From NCBI RefSeq assembly GCF_014695385.1, contig NZ_JACJOD010000007.1:1-64000 (forward strand): DNA of 64,000 nucleotides, written 5' to 3'. The notes below the pieces were generated by a model. The model was not told where the DNA came from and ran no database searches. It saw nothing but the letters and a program-made list of their open reading frames with translations. Both the position numbers and the translations under genes were made by a program. Shown here piece by piece: positions 6,810 through 16,215 of this stretch (position 1 is the stretch's first letter; every line of letters begins with the position of its first letter). This stretch comes from Trichocoleus sp. FACHB-46. GTDB lineage: Bacteria; Cyanobacteriota; Cyanobacteriia; FACHB-46.

Positions 6810-7361
6810 ATGGAAAATATGCAAGATAAAGCTAGAAGTGCCGTAGATAATGCTGCCCATGCTGCGGATAACGCAACCCATAAGGTTGCAGATGCAATCG
6901 AACATGCTAAAGAAGCTTTGCCCAATGTCACTCCTACCCCTCCTGGCCTGAAGGCTCAATCTTCGGTGCATGACCTCAAGTCTCGTTTGGAGTGGGGTGA
7001 GCCTGCGCTGACAATTCTAGATGCTCGCGATCGCGAAAGCTTTAATGCTAGCCACATCACTGGAGCCATGTCCATGCCAATGGATGAGTTGGTGTCTTGG
7101 GCGCAGTCCAGCCTAGAACCCAGCCGCGACATTTATGTGTATGGTGGCAACGAGCAAGAAACGGCTCAAGCAGCCCAAACCCTCCGGGGCGCTGGTTTCT
7201 TCAATGTGGCTGAGCTAAAGGGTGGCTTGGAAGCGTGGAAAGCAGTAGATGGAGCCACTGACGGTGCTGAGGACTCTCAAAGACCTCCTGGACCCGAAGG
7301 ATACAACGTGATCTCTGCGCTCGCCAATCACACTCAAAAGCAAGAAATTGATTTTCAATAA
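6810..7361 (+). CDS. Rhodanese-like domain protein without catalytic Cys
   Basis: 183 residues. Residues 1-40 form an Ala-rich amphipathic helix (AVDNAAHAADNATHKVADAI). A rhodanese fold follows at about 53-147 with the usual LDARDRESFNASHITGA and the C-terminal LKGGLEAW. Where active rhodaneses have Cys after the fourth strand, this protein reads YVYGGNEQE (Gly112), so sulfur transfer is not expected; it is more likely a binding or regulatory module. The C-terminal 35 residues are acidic and disordered. The next gene carries a similar domain with the same loss, suggesting local duplication. Confidence 0.85.
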   Translation: MENMQDKARSAVDNAAHAADNATHKVADAIEHAKEALPNVTPTPPGLKAQSSVHDLKSRLEWGEPALTILDARDRESFNASHITGAMSMPMDELVSWAQSSLEPSRDIYVYGGNEQETAQAAQTLRGAGFFNVAELKGGLEAWKAVDGATDGAEDSQRPPGPEGYNVISALANHTQKQEIDFQ

Positions 7362-7449: not shown

Positions 7450-7583
7450 AATCTTTAGCTGATCAGTTACCGCTTTAAACGAGACACCAAATCAAGGTTC
7501 AAAAGTCAAGGTTTCTACATAAAATTTTGCAGCTCGCAAAATCAGTTGTTAGATTGCAAGCAAAGCTACTTGGCATTCTCCAC

Positions 7584-7964
7584 ATGGACGCGTTCTTTAG
7601 CCTTCTCCCTCGGCCCCCAGCGCTACGGTCCAAGTCTCGCGTTTACGACCTTAAGGCTCGCTTAGATTGGGGTGAACCCGCACTGACAATCATTGATGTA
7701 CGCGATCGCAACCAATTCAACCTCAGCCACATCACTGGTGCGATTTCCATGCCTCTGCCCGAGCTTCCTGCTCGCACCCTAAATTCCCTAGAGTTCGATC
7801 GCGATTTGTACATCTACGGCGATATTGACGAAGAAGCCGCCGAAGCTGCTGCTAAACTACGGGCCGCCGGATATCGCCAGGTATCAGAGTTACGAGGTGG
7901 CTTGCCCGCCTGGAAAGCCGTGGGCTACCCGATTGAAGCGACGCTGACCGCTTTTCAACGCTAA
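7584..7964 (+). CDS. Rhodanese-like domain protein without catalytic Cys, second copy
   Basis: 126 residues from the first ATG; a TTG at 7527 could extend it by 19 residues. The rhodanese domain covers about 20-118 with IIDVRDRNQFNLSHITGA and LRGGLPAWKAVGYP. As in the upstream gene, the catalytic Cys is missing: the loop reads YIYGDIDEE (Gly79). The two domains share long stretches, such as DWGEPALTI against EWGEPALTI, so they are probably tandem duplicates that have diverged, this copy having lost the Ala-rich N-terminal helix. A terminator separates the genes, so they are expressed independently. It converges with the exonuclease gene. Confidence 0.78.
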   Translation: MDAFFSLLPRPPALRSKSRVYDLKARLDWGEPALTIIDVRDRNQFNLSHITGAISMPLPELPARTLNSLEFDRDLYIYGDIDEEAAEAAAKLRAAGYRQVSELRGGLPAWKAVGYPIEATLTAFQR

Positions 7965-11242: not shown

Positions 11243-13360
11243 ATGCCGACACCACAGCCAGTCCGCCAGCAAGGGGGAATCTTCGACCCCAACACCTTCA
11301 CAAGGCCAGAGAATGGGCGATCGCTGTCTTACCCAATTCTGATTGTGGGAGGCTCCACAGCCGCCTATGCTGCCACCCTCGCAGCCCTACGCAGTGGCAT
11401 TAACGTTTGTCTCGTCCAACCCCAAGCCGTAGTTGGCGGACAATTCACCGCCCAAGCCCTCCCCGCCTCCGATGATGGCGATCTCCTGCGCCAAGCTGCC
11501 ACCCCCTTTCAAGTCGAAGGCGAGCGGTTTGCCATTTCTAAAACCCAACGCAGCTTCCGCGATCGCCAACGGGAATTACAAAAGCTCAACGGTAGAAAAG
11601 TTGCCAATCCGGGCGGAGGTTGGGTCAGCCCCCTAGCTACTACCCCTGTGGTCGCCGCCACCGCGATGAACGAAGCGATCGCCCCTTACCTCGCCCAAGG
11701 CAAGCTCATCCTGATTCCTTTTTCTGAACCGATTAAAGTCGTGACCAGCGACAATCCAGGCCAGCGTCGGCGCGTGACGGGAATCGTGTTTCAAGATCGC
11801 CAGAACAATCACACCTTTACGATCAACAGCAGAGTCATCCTAGAAGCGACAGAGTTGGGAGACTTGCTAGAACTAGGCAATATTGAGTCTCGCGTCGGTC
11901 AGGAAGCCCGGAGTGAAACCGGAGAGCAAGCCTTGCCCGAACGAGCCTTGCCCCAATGTCAGCAGTCTTTTACCTTTGGCGCTGTTGTCGAACGGACGGC
12001 TCCGGGACGTGGGGTGGCGATCGGGGCTCCTCCTGGATATAACAGCAGTCCTTGGCTAAATGCCGCAGAGTTTCAAAGCGCCTTTTGGCACAAAAGCCGT
12101 GGACAGTGGGAACCCCAACCCCGTGAGTTTTTCAATCCTTTTGGCATCTTTCGCTATCGACGAATTTCCCGGGCAGCCGAAAATGAGAAAACAATTAGCC
12201 CTGGGGATGTCACGGTTCTGAACTGGGGCCAACATCAACATGGGGAAAATGGGCCTTGGTGCTGTGGCAATGACTATCGAGTTGGGGTCTTAGTCGGTGT
12301 GAGCCGAGACGAACGGCAGCGTCACATTCAACAAGCCCGCGATCGCGCCCGTGCTTACGTTCACTATTTGCAAACCAACGGAGTCCCAGACCTAAAGCCA
12401 CGCGGCGACCTCACTTGGACTCGGGATGGTATTGCCATAGAGCCTTACATTCGCGAAGCCAGACGTGGCATTGCGGCCACCACGATTCGCCATGAAGATG
12501 TCGCCAAGCCCTTTTTCCCTGGCCAGGCAAGAGCAAAAAGCTTTGAGGATAGTGTCGGCATCGGTCAGTACCACTATCTCGATCTGCACGGCAATGACGA
12601 GCCAGGGCATGCCAGCTTGCCAGGGGAAAACGTGATTGCGTTGCCTTTTACCTTGCCTCTGGGCGCTTTGATTCCGATTAACACCGATGGCTTGATCCTC
12701 TCGGCCAAAAGCATCGGCACTACCCACATTACCAACGCGGCTTATCGGATGCACCCCGTAGAATGGGCGATCGGAGAAGCAGGAGGTTATTTAGCCGCTC
12801 TAGCCGTCAATGCAGGAGTAGAAGTTCGCGATATTGCCACCAACGAAACGCTTAAACGCAAGCTGCAAGGCACCCTGACTCGCAATGGCATCCCGCTCTT
12901 TTGGTTTGATGATATTGCTCACGATGATCCCGACTTTGAAGCGATTCAGGTTCTAGCTGCTGCTGGAATTATTCGCAGTGAAAACTACACCGATCTGCAT
13001 TTTCGGCCCTCAGCCAACGTCAATCGAGCTGTGGTTGCCACCGCACTAGTCAAGCTGTTGGGCTTTGAACTGGTTTCGCCTGCCACGCCAACCTTCGTGG
13101 ATGTGTTGCCTAACTACCGCTGGGCTTACCCGATGATTGAAACATTAGTTGCGAAGCAAATTGCCGCTGGTGTGGGCGATCGCCGTTTTGCCCCAGAACG
13201 CCCGATCACTCGCGAGCAACTCTCGTTCTTAGTCAAAAAAGCACTGCCTGCTGCCTACGATCGTGCTTTTGCGAGAACTCCTGCCGACAAACAAGTGCTA
13301 CAACGGCGAGAACTATCGCGGGTTTTATATGAAGTAATGCAGGTGAAGCTCGGCATTTAG
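11243..13360 (+). CDS. FAD-dependent oxidoreductase with C-terminal SLH domains
   Basis: 705 residues. An N-terminal Rossmann segment, PILIVGGSTAAYAATLAALRS (about 30-50), followed by VVGGQFTAQAL, marks a FAD-binding oxidoreductase of the FAD_oxidored type, whose substrates are mostly unknown. The FAD domain ends near LILSAKSIGTTHITNAAYRMHP and WAIGEAGGYLAALAV (about 490-530). Residues 565-685 hold SLH repeats: YTDLHFRPSANVNRA, then FVDVLPNYRWAYPMIETL and FAPERPITREQLSFLV. SLH domains normally bind cell wall polymers, yet no N-terminal signal peptide is seen. The next gene is another SLH protein. Confidence 0.85.
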   Translation: MPTPQPVRQQGGIFDPNTFTRPENGRSLSYPILIVGGSTAAYAATLAALRSGINVCLVQPQAVVGGQFTAQALPASDDGDLLRQAATPFQVEGERFAISKTQRSFRDRQRELQKLNGRKVANPGGGWVSPLATTPVVAATAMNEAIAPYLAQGKLILIPFSEPIKVVTSDNPGQRRRVTGIVFQDRQNNHTFTINSRVILEATELGDLLELGNIESRVGQEARSETGEQALPERALPQCQQSFTFGAVVERTAPGRGVAIGAPPGYNSSPWLNAAEFQSAFWHKSRGQWEPQPREFFNPFGIFRYRRISRAAENEKTISPGDVTVLNWGQHQHGENGPWCCGNDYRVGVLVGVSRDERQRHIQQARDRARAYVHYLQTNGVPDLKPRGDLTWTRDGIAIEPYIREARRGIAATTIRHEDVAKPFFPGQARAKSFEDSVGIGQYHYLDLHGNDEPGHASLPGENVIALPFTLPLGALIPINTDGLILSAKSIGTTHITNAAYRMHPVEWAIGEAGGYLAALAVNAGVEVRDIATNETLKRKLQGTLTRNGIPLFWFDDIAHDDPDFEAIQVLAAAGIIRSENYTDLHFRPSANVNRAVVATALVKLLGFELVSPATPTFVDVLPNYRWAYPMIETLVAKQIAAGVGDRRFAPERPITREQLSFLVKKALPAAYDRAFARTPADKQVLQRRELSRVLYEVMQVKLGI

Positions 13361-13442: not shown

Positions 13443-13796
13443 ATGCTGCAACAAATTCTGGCTCGTCCTCTAGGATGGCTCTTGGTTTTAGGAACTTTGA
13501 CTGGAAGCGCGATCGCCGTTCATCCTGCTCAAGCTCAAACGCCTGATCTCACACCTACTGAATCTCCATCGCAACCGACGCAAGTAGATCCGACTCTAAA
13601 CGAGGGTTATCCGATTCGCCGTCAGGATGCGCCGCTGCCAATCCCTCAGGTTTACGAAACCCCAATTGAGCAATTTGAGCCACCTTTCTCCGACGTACCG
13701 CGTGAGCATTGGGCCTATGAAGCAGTGACCCGGTTGTTTTACATTGGGGGAGTGAAGGGAGAACCTACAACTCCCACGAATTCAACTCAGCAATAA
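13443..13796 (+). CDS. Small secreted protein with a partial SLH motif
   Basis: 117 residues from the ATG at 13443; a TTG at 13368 would add 25 residues but would bury the signal peptide. Residues 1-31 form a signal peptide (LGWLLVLGTLTGSAIA, cleavage likely near AQAQ). A Pro/Thr-rich stretch follows, then one SLH half-motif, FSDVPREHWAYEAVTRLFYIG, broken here as FSDVPREHWAYEA plus VTRLFYIGG. One SLH unit is too little to anchor alone in the usual three-repeat way. It may form an operon with the upstream oxidoreductase and the downstream SUI1 gene (13-bp gap). Confidence 0.75.
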   Translation: MLQQILARPLGWLLVLGTLTGSAIAVHPAQAQTPDLTPTESPSQPTQVDPTLNEGYPIRRQDAPLPIPQVYETPIEQFEPPFSDVPREHWAYEAVTRLFYIGGVKGEPTTPTNSTQQ

Positions 13797-14273: not shown

Positions 14274-14364
14274 GACGGAATTTGGGGCAACTTAATTGGA
14301 TTAAGAGAGATAAGCCGCCATCCATTCGTCTTTGCCTGTCACCTTGGCCTTACAGAACTTTTCC

Positions 14365-16215
14365 ATGCATAAAATCTACCGACCCCGCTCGCCGCTGACC
14401 TTCTTCACCACCTTTTTGACTGCGATCGCGATGGTGATTGCAGCGGGTTTGATGACCCCCACCACCGCACAAACGAGCCCAACTAAATTTAAGGACGTTC
14501 AAGGTCACTGGGCACAGAACTGTATTGAAAATTTGGCTGATCAGAAAATCATTAGTGGCTATCCCGATGGTAGCTTCCGCCCCAGTGCCCCCGTCACGCG
14601 TGCTGAATTTGCCGCAATGGTGGTGAAAGCGTTTCCGGGAGCCGTTAATGCTGCCCTACCGACCGCACCCATCCGATTTAGTGATGTAGCGACTAATTAT
14701 TGGGCGGCTCAATCAATTGATAAAGCATCGGGTGCGGGGTTTATGTCCGGTTATCCCGGTCGAATTTTTAGACCAGCTCAGAATATCCCTCGCGCTCAAG
14801 TTCTAGTAGCATTAGCAGGTGGCTTGGGCTACAAAGCGGCTCAACCTGTTGCCACAACCTTAAGTGCTAACTTTAATGATGCTCAAGCGATTCCTGACTA
14901 TGCCCGTAACGCGATCGCGGCAGCGACTGAAAAACAAATTGTCGTCAACTATCCCAACGTCAAGTCTCTCAATCCCAATCAAATGGCGACTCGCGCCGAT
15001 GTAGCAGCAGCCATTTGTCGCAGTCGAGCAGGCTCCGATCAACTCGCCCTAGTTCCTACCCAATACATCGCTAGTAACAAACCCCAGTCCCAGCCTCAAA
15101 GCACTAACAAAACGAGCGAAATCCGAGGCGTGTGGCTCACCAACGTCGATAGCGAGATCTTGTTTAGTCGCGATCGCCTCAAGAATGACTTGCAAGACCT
15201 GGCAAATCTCAAGTTCAACACCGTTTATCCAACGGTTTGGAACTGGGGCCATACACTCTACCCTAGCGAAGTTGCCAAAAAAGTGATTGGTACAGAGGTA
15301 GATCCAACTCCAGGCTTGCAAGGGCGAGATATGTTGGCGGAAGCCGTAGCGGAAGGCCATCGTAACAACCTCGCTGTCATTCCTTGGTTTGAATTTGGCT
15401 TCATGGCTCCTGCCGAGTCAGACCTAGTGGCACGTCATCCTGACTGGCTTACTACTCGACAAGACGGTTCCACGATTTGGGCCGAAGGCAAGCACAGTCG
15501 CGTTTGGCTCAATCCTTTTCAGCCGGAAGTGCAACAGTTCATGATCGATTTGGTCACCGAAATTGTCACCAAATACGACATTGATGGCATTCAGTTTGAT
15601 GACCACTTTGGGCTACCTGCTCAGTTTGGCTACGACCCCATCACCGTCAAGCTTTATCAGCAAGAACATCAAGGCCAGAAACCACCAAGCGATCCCAAAG
15701 ATGCCGAGTGGACTCGTTGGCGTGCTGACAAAATTACCGCTGTGTTCGCTCGCACGTTTGAGGCAATTAAGGCTCGTAAACCCAAGACAATCGTTTCCCT
15801 CTCTCCCAATCCGCAAAAGTTCTCCTATGAGGAATTTTTGGCCGATTGGGCCACGTGGGAACGCCGTGGCTTGGTAGAAGAACTGTTGTTGCAGATTTAT
15901 CGCACTGACTTAAACACCTTTATTTCAGAACTCGATCAGCCCGAAGTTCGAGCTGCGAAACAACATATTCCTGTCGCGATCGGCATTTTGGCAGGCTTGA
16001 AAGACCGTTTGATGCCAACTCCACAAATTCAAGCCCAAGTGCAAGCGGTACGCGATCGCGACTTCAAAGGTGTGTCTTTCTTCTACTACGAAACCATGTG
16101 GAACTTTGACACCAACAACGTCGCCCGCCGCAAAACGGCCTTCCAAAACCTGTTTGCCTCGAATGTGACCCGCCCCAACCTTGTGCAGGAGCAGGCGGTG
16201 AAGACGGAAGGATGA
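14365..16215 (+). CDS. Secreted GHL10 glycosyl-hydrolase-like protein with three SLH domains
   Basis: 616 residues from the ATG at 14365; a TTG at 14332 would extend it by 11. The signal peptide spans about 1-37. Three SLH repeats follow: FKDVQGHWAQNCIE, FSDVATNYWAAQSID and FNDAQAIPDYARNAI (about 40-215). Residues 250-600 are a TIM-barrel of the GHL10 (DUF187) family: IRGVWLTNVDS, LKFNTVYPTVWNWG, AVIPWFEFGFMAP, VWLNPFQPEVQQFM and the acidic DIDGIQFDDHFG. Such proteins probably cut or bind a cell-surface glycan; the substrate is unknown. It is bounded by the upstream terminator and a repeat-rich 3' spacer. Confidence 0.9.
   Translation: MHKIYRPRSPLTFFTTFLTAIAMVIAAGLMTPTTAQTSPTKFKDVQGHWAQNCIENLADQKIISGYPDGSFRPSAPVTRAEFAAMVVKAFPGAVNAALPTAPIRFSDVATNYWAAQSIDKASGAGFMSGYPGRIFRPAQNIPRAQVLVALAGGLGYKAAQPVATTLSANFNDAQAIPDYARNAIAAATEKQIVVNYPNVKSLNPNQMATRADVAAAICRSRAGSDQLALVPTQYIASNKPQSQPQSTNKTSEIRGVWLTNVDSEILFSRDRLKNDLQDLANLKFNTVYPTVWNWGHTLYPSEVAKKVIGTEVDPTPGLQGRDMLAEAVAEGHRNNLAVIPWFEFGFMAPAESDLVARHPDWLTTRQDGSTIWAEGKHSRVWLNPFQPEVQQFMIDLVTEIVTKYDIDGIQFDDHFGLPAQFGYDPITVKLYQQEHQGQKPPSDPKDAEWTRWRADKITAVFARTFEAIKARKPKTIVSLSPNPQKFSYEEFLADWATWERRGLVEELLLQIYRTDLNTFISELDQPEVRAAKQHIPVAIGILAGLKDRLMPTPQIQAQVQAVRDRDFKGVSFFYYETMWNFDTNNVARRKTAFQNLFASNVTRPNLVQEQAVKTEG

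Follow-up and report, generated by a model that had tools for sequence, protein, structure and literature searches.

Can an FAD-dependent oxidoreductase that carries SLH repeats at its C-terminus and shows no visible signal peptide be a surface protein? The question is raised by a gene in the window analysed here, a 64,000-nucleotide stretch of a Trichocoleus sp. FACHB-46 contig (NZ_JACJOD010000007.1), for which a preliminary description had left two options, namely that the protein leaves the cell by an unusual route or that its SLH repeats serve another purpose. Our analysis favours the latter, because no signal was seen in any of 62 frames, residues of the sugar pockets are lost, repeats are eroded in one genus, and a related tail sits on signal-less haloarchaeal flavoenzymes. 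We consider it likely that the protein is a cytosolic PF12831 oxidoreductase, as predicted from these features, and that its SLH-like C-terminal module serves the enzyme as an accessory domain instead of anchoring it to the wall.

The gene (11243..13360, + strand, as for all its parts below) is an ATG-to-stop open frame of 705 aa. Its first 28 residues (11243..11326) form a short, polar N-terminus that, from the sequence and the comparison with homologues, lacks a twin arginine. The FAD_oxidored catalytic domain follows at residues ~30-540 (11330..12862), opening with the FAD-binding segment YPILIVGGSTAA from residue ~30 and containing the segments GGSTAA, PYIREARRG and THITNAAYRMHPVEWAIGEA, all of which lie in columns conserved across 48 sequences. 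We take GGSTAA to be the FAD fingerprint, and FAD binding as well as oxidoreductase activity are predicted; by family and motifs, the protein is classed as an FAD-dependent oxidoreductase. The first SLH-like repeat (residues ~554-611; 12902..13075) includes the DPDFEAIQ helix and has Pro563 at SLH-Trp13 and Ser579 at SLH-Gly29, with Arg595 retained. Repeat 2 (residues ~612-668; 13076..13246; best PF00395 stretch 618-660) retains Trp627, Gly643 and Arg657, and the remnant of repeat 3 (residues ~669-705; 13247..13357) consists of a second half only, with QRRELSRVLYEV (Arg688). The SLH count is thereby refined: two repeats are recognisable (~555-611 and 612-668), and a third is represented by its second half (~669-705).

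The fusion of an FAD oxidoreductase to SLH repeats without a visible export signal thus stands as first described: the open reading frame was confirmed and both Pfam domains exceed their cut-offs. PF12831 matches residues 32-535 at 247.4 bits (cut-off 27), spanning model positions 2-411 of 416, and PF00395 matches in two stretches at 46.8 bits (cut-off 20.8), which removes the concern that the SLH-like hits might fail the profile threshold. A chance SLH match is ruled out by the Pfam scores, by the match of the family profile to Sap of Bacillus anthracis (4.6e-10) and by the 48 of 48 homologues that match as well. An AlphaFold model of the SLH module built on four sequences was of low confidence (mean pLDDT 51.6); the first 15 Foldseek matches of this low-confidence model were SpaA and Sap SLH structures at E values of 0.006 to 0.11, none reaching 0.001 or below, with TM scores to the query of 0.47-0.56 and an rmsd of ~8 A. 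The full-length model (mean pLDDT 45.9) was unusable for domain packing, and its Foldseek matches, flavocytochrome c3 and succinate dehydrogenase with query TM scores of 0.14-0.18, would indicate the FAD fold, nothing more.

Searching other genomes for the same FAD-SLH fusion, as had been proposed, recovered a conserved cyanobacterial family of 62 distinct full-length frames (48 at first and 14 more thereafter, both sets counted after removal of identical rows), which rules out a single-assembly artefact. Both Pfam families match all 48 members of the first set (A3; SLH at E up to 0.01). The full-length protein occurs in 3/3 genomes of the family to which our strain belongs. Within the order of genome G217, 55 of 63 genomes match at E up to 1e-30, of which, as judged by reading the rows, 48 have the full-length type, fragmented in some cases, and seven a shorter form only; the family of genome G064 has one positive among 20 genomes. 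Sampling the class with the family profile at E up to 1e-60 gave 70/388 genomes, one of which (G453) carries the short form, and in the phylum sample 45/386 genomes match at E up to 1e-20, with five rows covering both domains in full. Carriers include Synechococcales cyanobacterium M55_K2018_004, Leptolyngbya sp. SIO4C1 and Leptolyngbyaceae cyanobacterium MO_188.B28. No relative was confirmed on the viral contigs searched. The plasmid search returned 44 records, every one below 60% identity; the only listed match that extends into the SLH part (H4, query 55-662) overruns the annotated gene end.

Outside cyanobacteria, the nearest FAD relatives that were recovered are tail-less. Six FAD-only PF12831 relatives in Paenibacillus ginsengarvi (35-38% identity) are encoded by frames of 529-564 codons, and their matches end where the cyanobacterial tail sets in, at query residues 554-566; the five that were viewed have no signal by eye and a C-terminal G-[IA]-E-L-x-W. 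Two other Paenibacillus PF12831 proteins (L191, L193) extend beyond the FAD domain with a tail, which is shared by haloarchaeal homologues, namely seven FAD-dependent oxidoreductases (L200-L206) whose annotated starts leave next to nothing ahead of the Rossmann fold. When the 62 cyanobacterial rows over residues 554-705 were compared, as a profile, with one of these seven haloarchaeal and two Paenibacillus tails, the two matched over 123 columns with a score of 47.6, a probability of 93.3% and a pair E value of 2.7e-7, as against 13.6 for the reversed tail, 17.8 for the best of 100 column shuffles and 7.5 for a different tail of four other PF12831 proteins. Without the first helix, the score was 34.0 and the probability 70.2%. 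Ordinary SLH arrays of our strain's own genome scored 26.3 against the haloarchaeal/Paenibacillus tail (E 0.0021), compared with 18.5 for the best shuffle and 14.1 in reverse. The alignment of the full-length profiles runs on uninterrupted from the Rossmann fold to repeat 1, covering query residues 30-596 at a probability of 99.5%. Pfam SLH is found in none of the seven haloarchaeal proteins at E up to 1 and in neither L191 nor L193 at E up to 10, and a four-row profile (A2) gave no significant match to single Paenibacillus proteins. On these comparisons, the tail looks like an SLH-like accessory domain common to several PF12831 groups. It may have been present ancestrally, with loss in the FAD-only relatives, or have been acquired repeatedly; given the haloarchaeal and Paenibacillus tails, a fusion in an ancestral cyanobacterium as the sole origin is unsupported. 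Judged from sequence, the FAD_oxidored family acquires differing tails. Among the Paenibacillus PF12831 proteins we also observed two (L189, L198) whose N-terminus carries a membrane segment and whose long post-FAD tail has a similar-looking layout, of which L189 was not significantly matched by the four-row profile, and two (L192, L199) that have C-terminal HEAT repeats instead.

Does the cyanobacterial tail have what an SLH domain needs to hold a wall polymer? According to the P. alvei SpaA study (PMC6081394), the pocket of repeat n is built from SLH-Gly29 of repeat n, SLH-Trp13 of repeat n+1 and SLH-Arg43 of repeat n+2. In repeat 1 of the cyanobacterial family, Trp13 is missing from 62/62 frames (Pro in 44, an aromatic residue in none) and so is Gly29 (Ser in 51/62, Gly in none). 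Repeat 3 is without its first half in 61/62, and the core arginines of repeats 2 and 3 accordingly lie 30-36 residues apart (ends counted) in 61/62 frames and 76 apart in L182, which has an insert, whereas this spacing is 65-70 residues in 14/14 arrays of the strain's own genome. Because repeat 1 has lost Trp13 and Gly29 and repeat 3 is halved, pockets 1 and 3 fail in all 62 frames and pocket 2 in 61, the insert-bearing L182 lying outside the pocket-2 scoring. By comparison, 14 of 14 multi-repeat SLH arrays of the same genome retain at least one pocket when Tyr or Phe is accepted at Trp13 (six single-repeat SLH frames being left unscored); in one of them (L096), repeat 1 likewise lacks Trp13 and Gly29, yet pocket 2 is intact. 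Of the features of a wall-anchoring SLH trimer, the family thus shows neither three full repeats nor, by the rule of the SpaA study (PMC6081394), a single complete pocket, nor an export signal (0/62, by hydropathy only and with a thin margin at the top). On the other hand, Arg43 is retained in 48/48 sequences in repeats 1 and 3 and in 47/48 in repeat 2, which also keeps Trp13 (46/48) and Gly29 (48/48). This would seem more than a plain scaffold needs and speaks against a non-anchor reading. Besides, SLH domains of Negativicutes are described as attaching to the wall while lacking the usual motifs (PMC10628300), so that some wall ligand would be conceivable even where the pocket rule fails.

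A pocket might also serve inside the cell, where the SLH fold could bind a soluble ligand, be it a sugar, a nucleotide-sugar or the enzyme's own substrate. Such a role would fit with the sugar binding known for some SLH domains (PMC6081394) and with gene surroundings: both FAD-only relatives whose surroundings were viewed have sugar genes close by, and three of the seven haloarchaeal loci adjoin genes for an ABC transporter permease, a GH32 protein or an alpha-glucosidase domain, from which a sugar or polyol might be guessed as the substrate of the enzyme. However, the pocket halves of repeats 1 and 3 are missing, and no shared sugar operon surrounds the cyanobacterial genes at the 12 loci compared, so we regard binding of an intracellular ligand as unlikely. 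A dedicated partner gene was not found at these loci either, since no neighbour was common to more than four of the 12, and those four belong to one genus (g159). Across genera, a GHL10-type cluster recurs at three loci (the window, L145 and L140) and three further clusters at two loci each.

Some neighbours within the window deserve mention in their own right. The product of the small downstream gene at 13443-13796 has a signal-like start and one SLH-like segment of the first-half type (FSDVPREHWAYEAVTRLFYIGGVKG), which looks like the half absent from repeat 3; Pfam SLH does not match this product. A pairing of this gene with the FAD-SLH gene is unsupported, because among the 12 loci it recurs in the same genus only. 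Between this small gene and the next SLH-related one lies a gene for a SUI1-type translation initiation factor (PF01253; 13810-14172), which is followed by that of an ordinary SLH-GHL10 protein with a signal-like start, whose array satisfies two pockets (14332-16215); a paralogue of the latter (L085:911-2959) has an ambiguous start (TTG). Farther upstream, the neighbouring and similar frames at 6810-7361 (SVHDLKSRLEWGEPALTILD) and 7527-7964 (RVYDLKARLDWGEPALTIID), which are presumably rhodanese-like, appear to be tandem duplicates.

The lost pocket residues and the halved third repeat could alternatively mark the tail as a fusion remnant that has no present role, and one genus has gone further along this path. 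While L179-L183 score above the Pfam cut-off for SLH, L184 scores 16.5 bits, below it, and L185-L188 have no SLH match; FAD_oxidored still reaches 235-250 bits in L184-L188. The agreement of these five with the consensus of the other 57 frames is 0.94 in the REARRG region and 0.61 in the FAD core, 0.36 at residues 539-553, 0.57 in the first half of repeat 1, and 0.24, 0.21 and 0.16 in the core helix of repeat 1, repeat 2 and the last part, respectively. In this genus, repeats 2 and 3 are thus eroded beyond recognition and the enzyme motifs retained. Against a mere remnant, both parts of the protein are under purifying selection, with a median pairwise dN/dS of 0.088 over 168 pairs in the FAD part and of 0.121 over 167 pairs in the SLH part, these medians being descriptive because the pairs were picked for a total dS of 0.15-1.2, overlap and are non-independent. 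Mean identity among 10 sequences is 0.69 over residues 543-606 and 0.63 in the FAD part, though 0.54 in repeat 2 and 0.60 in the last part. The onset of repeat 1 follows the pattern [FL][DN]D..x.D.D[FY]..[IV]Q in 62/62 frames, L184-L188 included, and the tail persists in short homologues that have lost catalytic motifs and, by profile, in haloarchaea. A functionless remnant therefore strikes us as quite improbable.

As for export, an in-frame stop lies 22 codons upstream of the ATG at 11243, and from this stop to the FAD domain the 705-aa protein has no hydrophobic segment of at least 1.6 by hydropathy. Over the corresponding stretch, which spans at most 42 codons in 27 of the 48 frames, none of the 48 has an 11-residue window that reaches a mean hydropathy of 1.6 (highest 1.55, median 0.67), and the 14 added frames peak at 1.59, likewise below 1.60. 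By contrast, 19 other SLH frames of the same genome reach at least 1.60 in the stretch of up to 90 codons that leads to the first repeat, window hydropathy being a crude stand-in for a signal predictor; the top test values of 1.59 and 1.58 nearly touch the lowest control of 1.60. Visual inspection shows a signal or membrane segment in 17 of the 19, the other two, L085 and L089, being ambiguous; L089 (C22:308000-313500), 756 codons long, encodes two SLH arrays in succession and has no clear signal at its start. Two arginines precede the FAD domain in just 3/48 frames and, among the 14 added, in L182, whose first start codon lies downstream of them. The check for a Tat motif or a longer start in relatives, which the preliminary description had called for, thus speaks against both (0/62 frames reach the hydropathy of the SLH controls): given the nearby in-frame stops and the hydropathy of the 62 homologues, it is unlikely that an upstream start or a Tat signal was overlooked. 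Non-classical export, by hitch-hiking through Tat with a partner or in vesicles, with the SLH repeats still holding the wall, could draw on FAD proteins being typical Tat cargo and on a repeat 2 that has all three pocket residues in most sequences, as well as on the Arg43 of repeats 1 and 3, invariant in 48/48, but it appears very improbable to us, as no pocket conforms to the published rule, one genus has let repeats 2 and 3 erode, no common partner emerged from the neighbourhoods, and arginine pairs are so rare.

The export puzzle is therefore most likely answered by the protein staying unexported, and its location is probably cytosolic. As an accessory module of an enzyme acting in the cytosol, the tail would be held on the catalytic domain by the repeat-1 helix (DxDFxxIQ), which follows that domain without a linker and most likely packs on it or contacts another subunit; the tail might then serve stability, subunit contact or partner binding. 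The middle repeat of the cyanobacterial proteins would have diverged so little from the SLH consensus that Pfam still recognises it.

The same frame also occurs in a reduced form. Set A4 (L147, L149-L156) comprises nine frames of 494-533 codons from several genera, which retain the N-terminal Rossmann segment and the SLH-derived end; both Pfam families match 9/9 at E up to 0.1, the first member having an SLH score of 18.4, below the Pfam cut-off. Since the REARRG and THITNAAYRMH segments were not found in the A4 alignment, these short homologues are likely pseudoenzymes. They form a single group with support of 100/100 in a tree that has no outgroup and long branches, and may have arisen within the full-length family. 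Three genomes (G414, G451, G463) have both forms.

An SLH match is usually taken to mean a surface protein. The FAD-SLH family is a counter-example with a signature of its own, in which the export signal is absent, pocket residues are lost and a different part of the fold is conserved. The new element is the presence of an SLH-like domain in a setting predicted to be cytosolic, clear in cyanobacteria and, by profile, in haloarchaea. Haloarchaea have no peptidoglycan wall, so that a related tail there suggests an older or wider intracellular use of the SLH fold; it would also account for an unannotated C-terminal domain in some FAD-dependent oxidoreductases. Tentatively, and with somewhat less than even confidence, we propose that the SLH fold also is an intracellular accessory domain of a broad FAD_oxidored group in bacteria and haloarchaea, mostly beyond Pfam detection, to which the cyanobacterial family is the visible link, and that this Rossmann-plus-SLH frame has given rise to a pseudoenzyme.

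Set against known systems, the protein resembles the SLH trimer of Sap (B. anthracis) by family profile, and both this and that of SpaA (P. alvei) by Foldseek matches of a low-confidence module model, none at E 0.001 or below, but differs from them in having no signal peptide, no Trp13 or Gly29 in repeat 1 and only half of repeat 3. The SLH-GHL10 proteins and SLH-porins of cyanobacteria carry SLH repeats in the same genome, but have a signal or membrane segment in 17/19 cases and at least one pocket in 14/14. PF12831 members of the FAD-only kind, such as the six of P. ginsengarvi, have the same catalytic domain and, unlike the 705-aa protein, no tail, whereas the A4 short homologues share the Rossmann segment and the SLH-derived end and differ by the missing REARRG and THITNAAYRMH segments. 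The haloarchaeal L200-L206 and Paenibacillus L191 and L193, though distant in sequence and without a Pfam SLH match, likewise combine PF12831 with a profile-matching tail and no visible signal.
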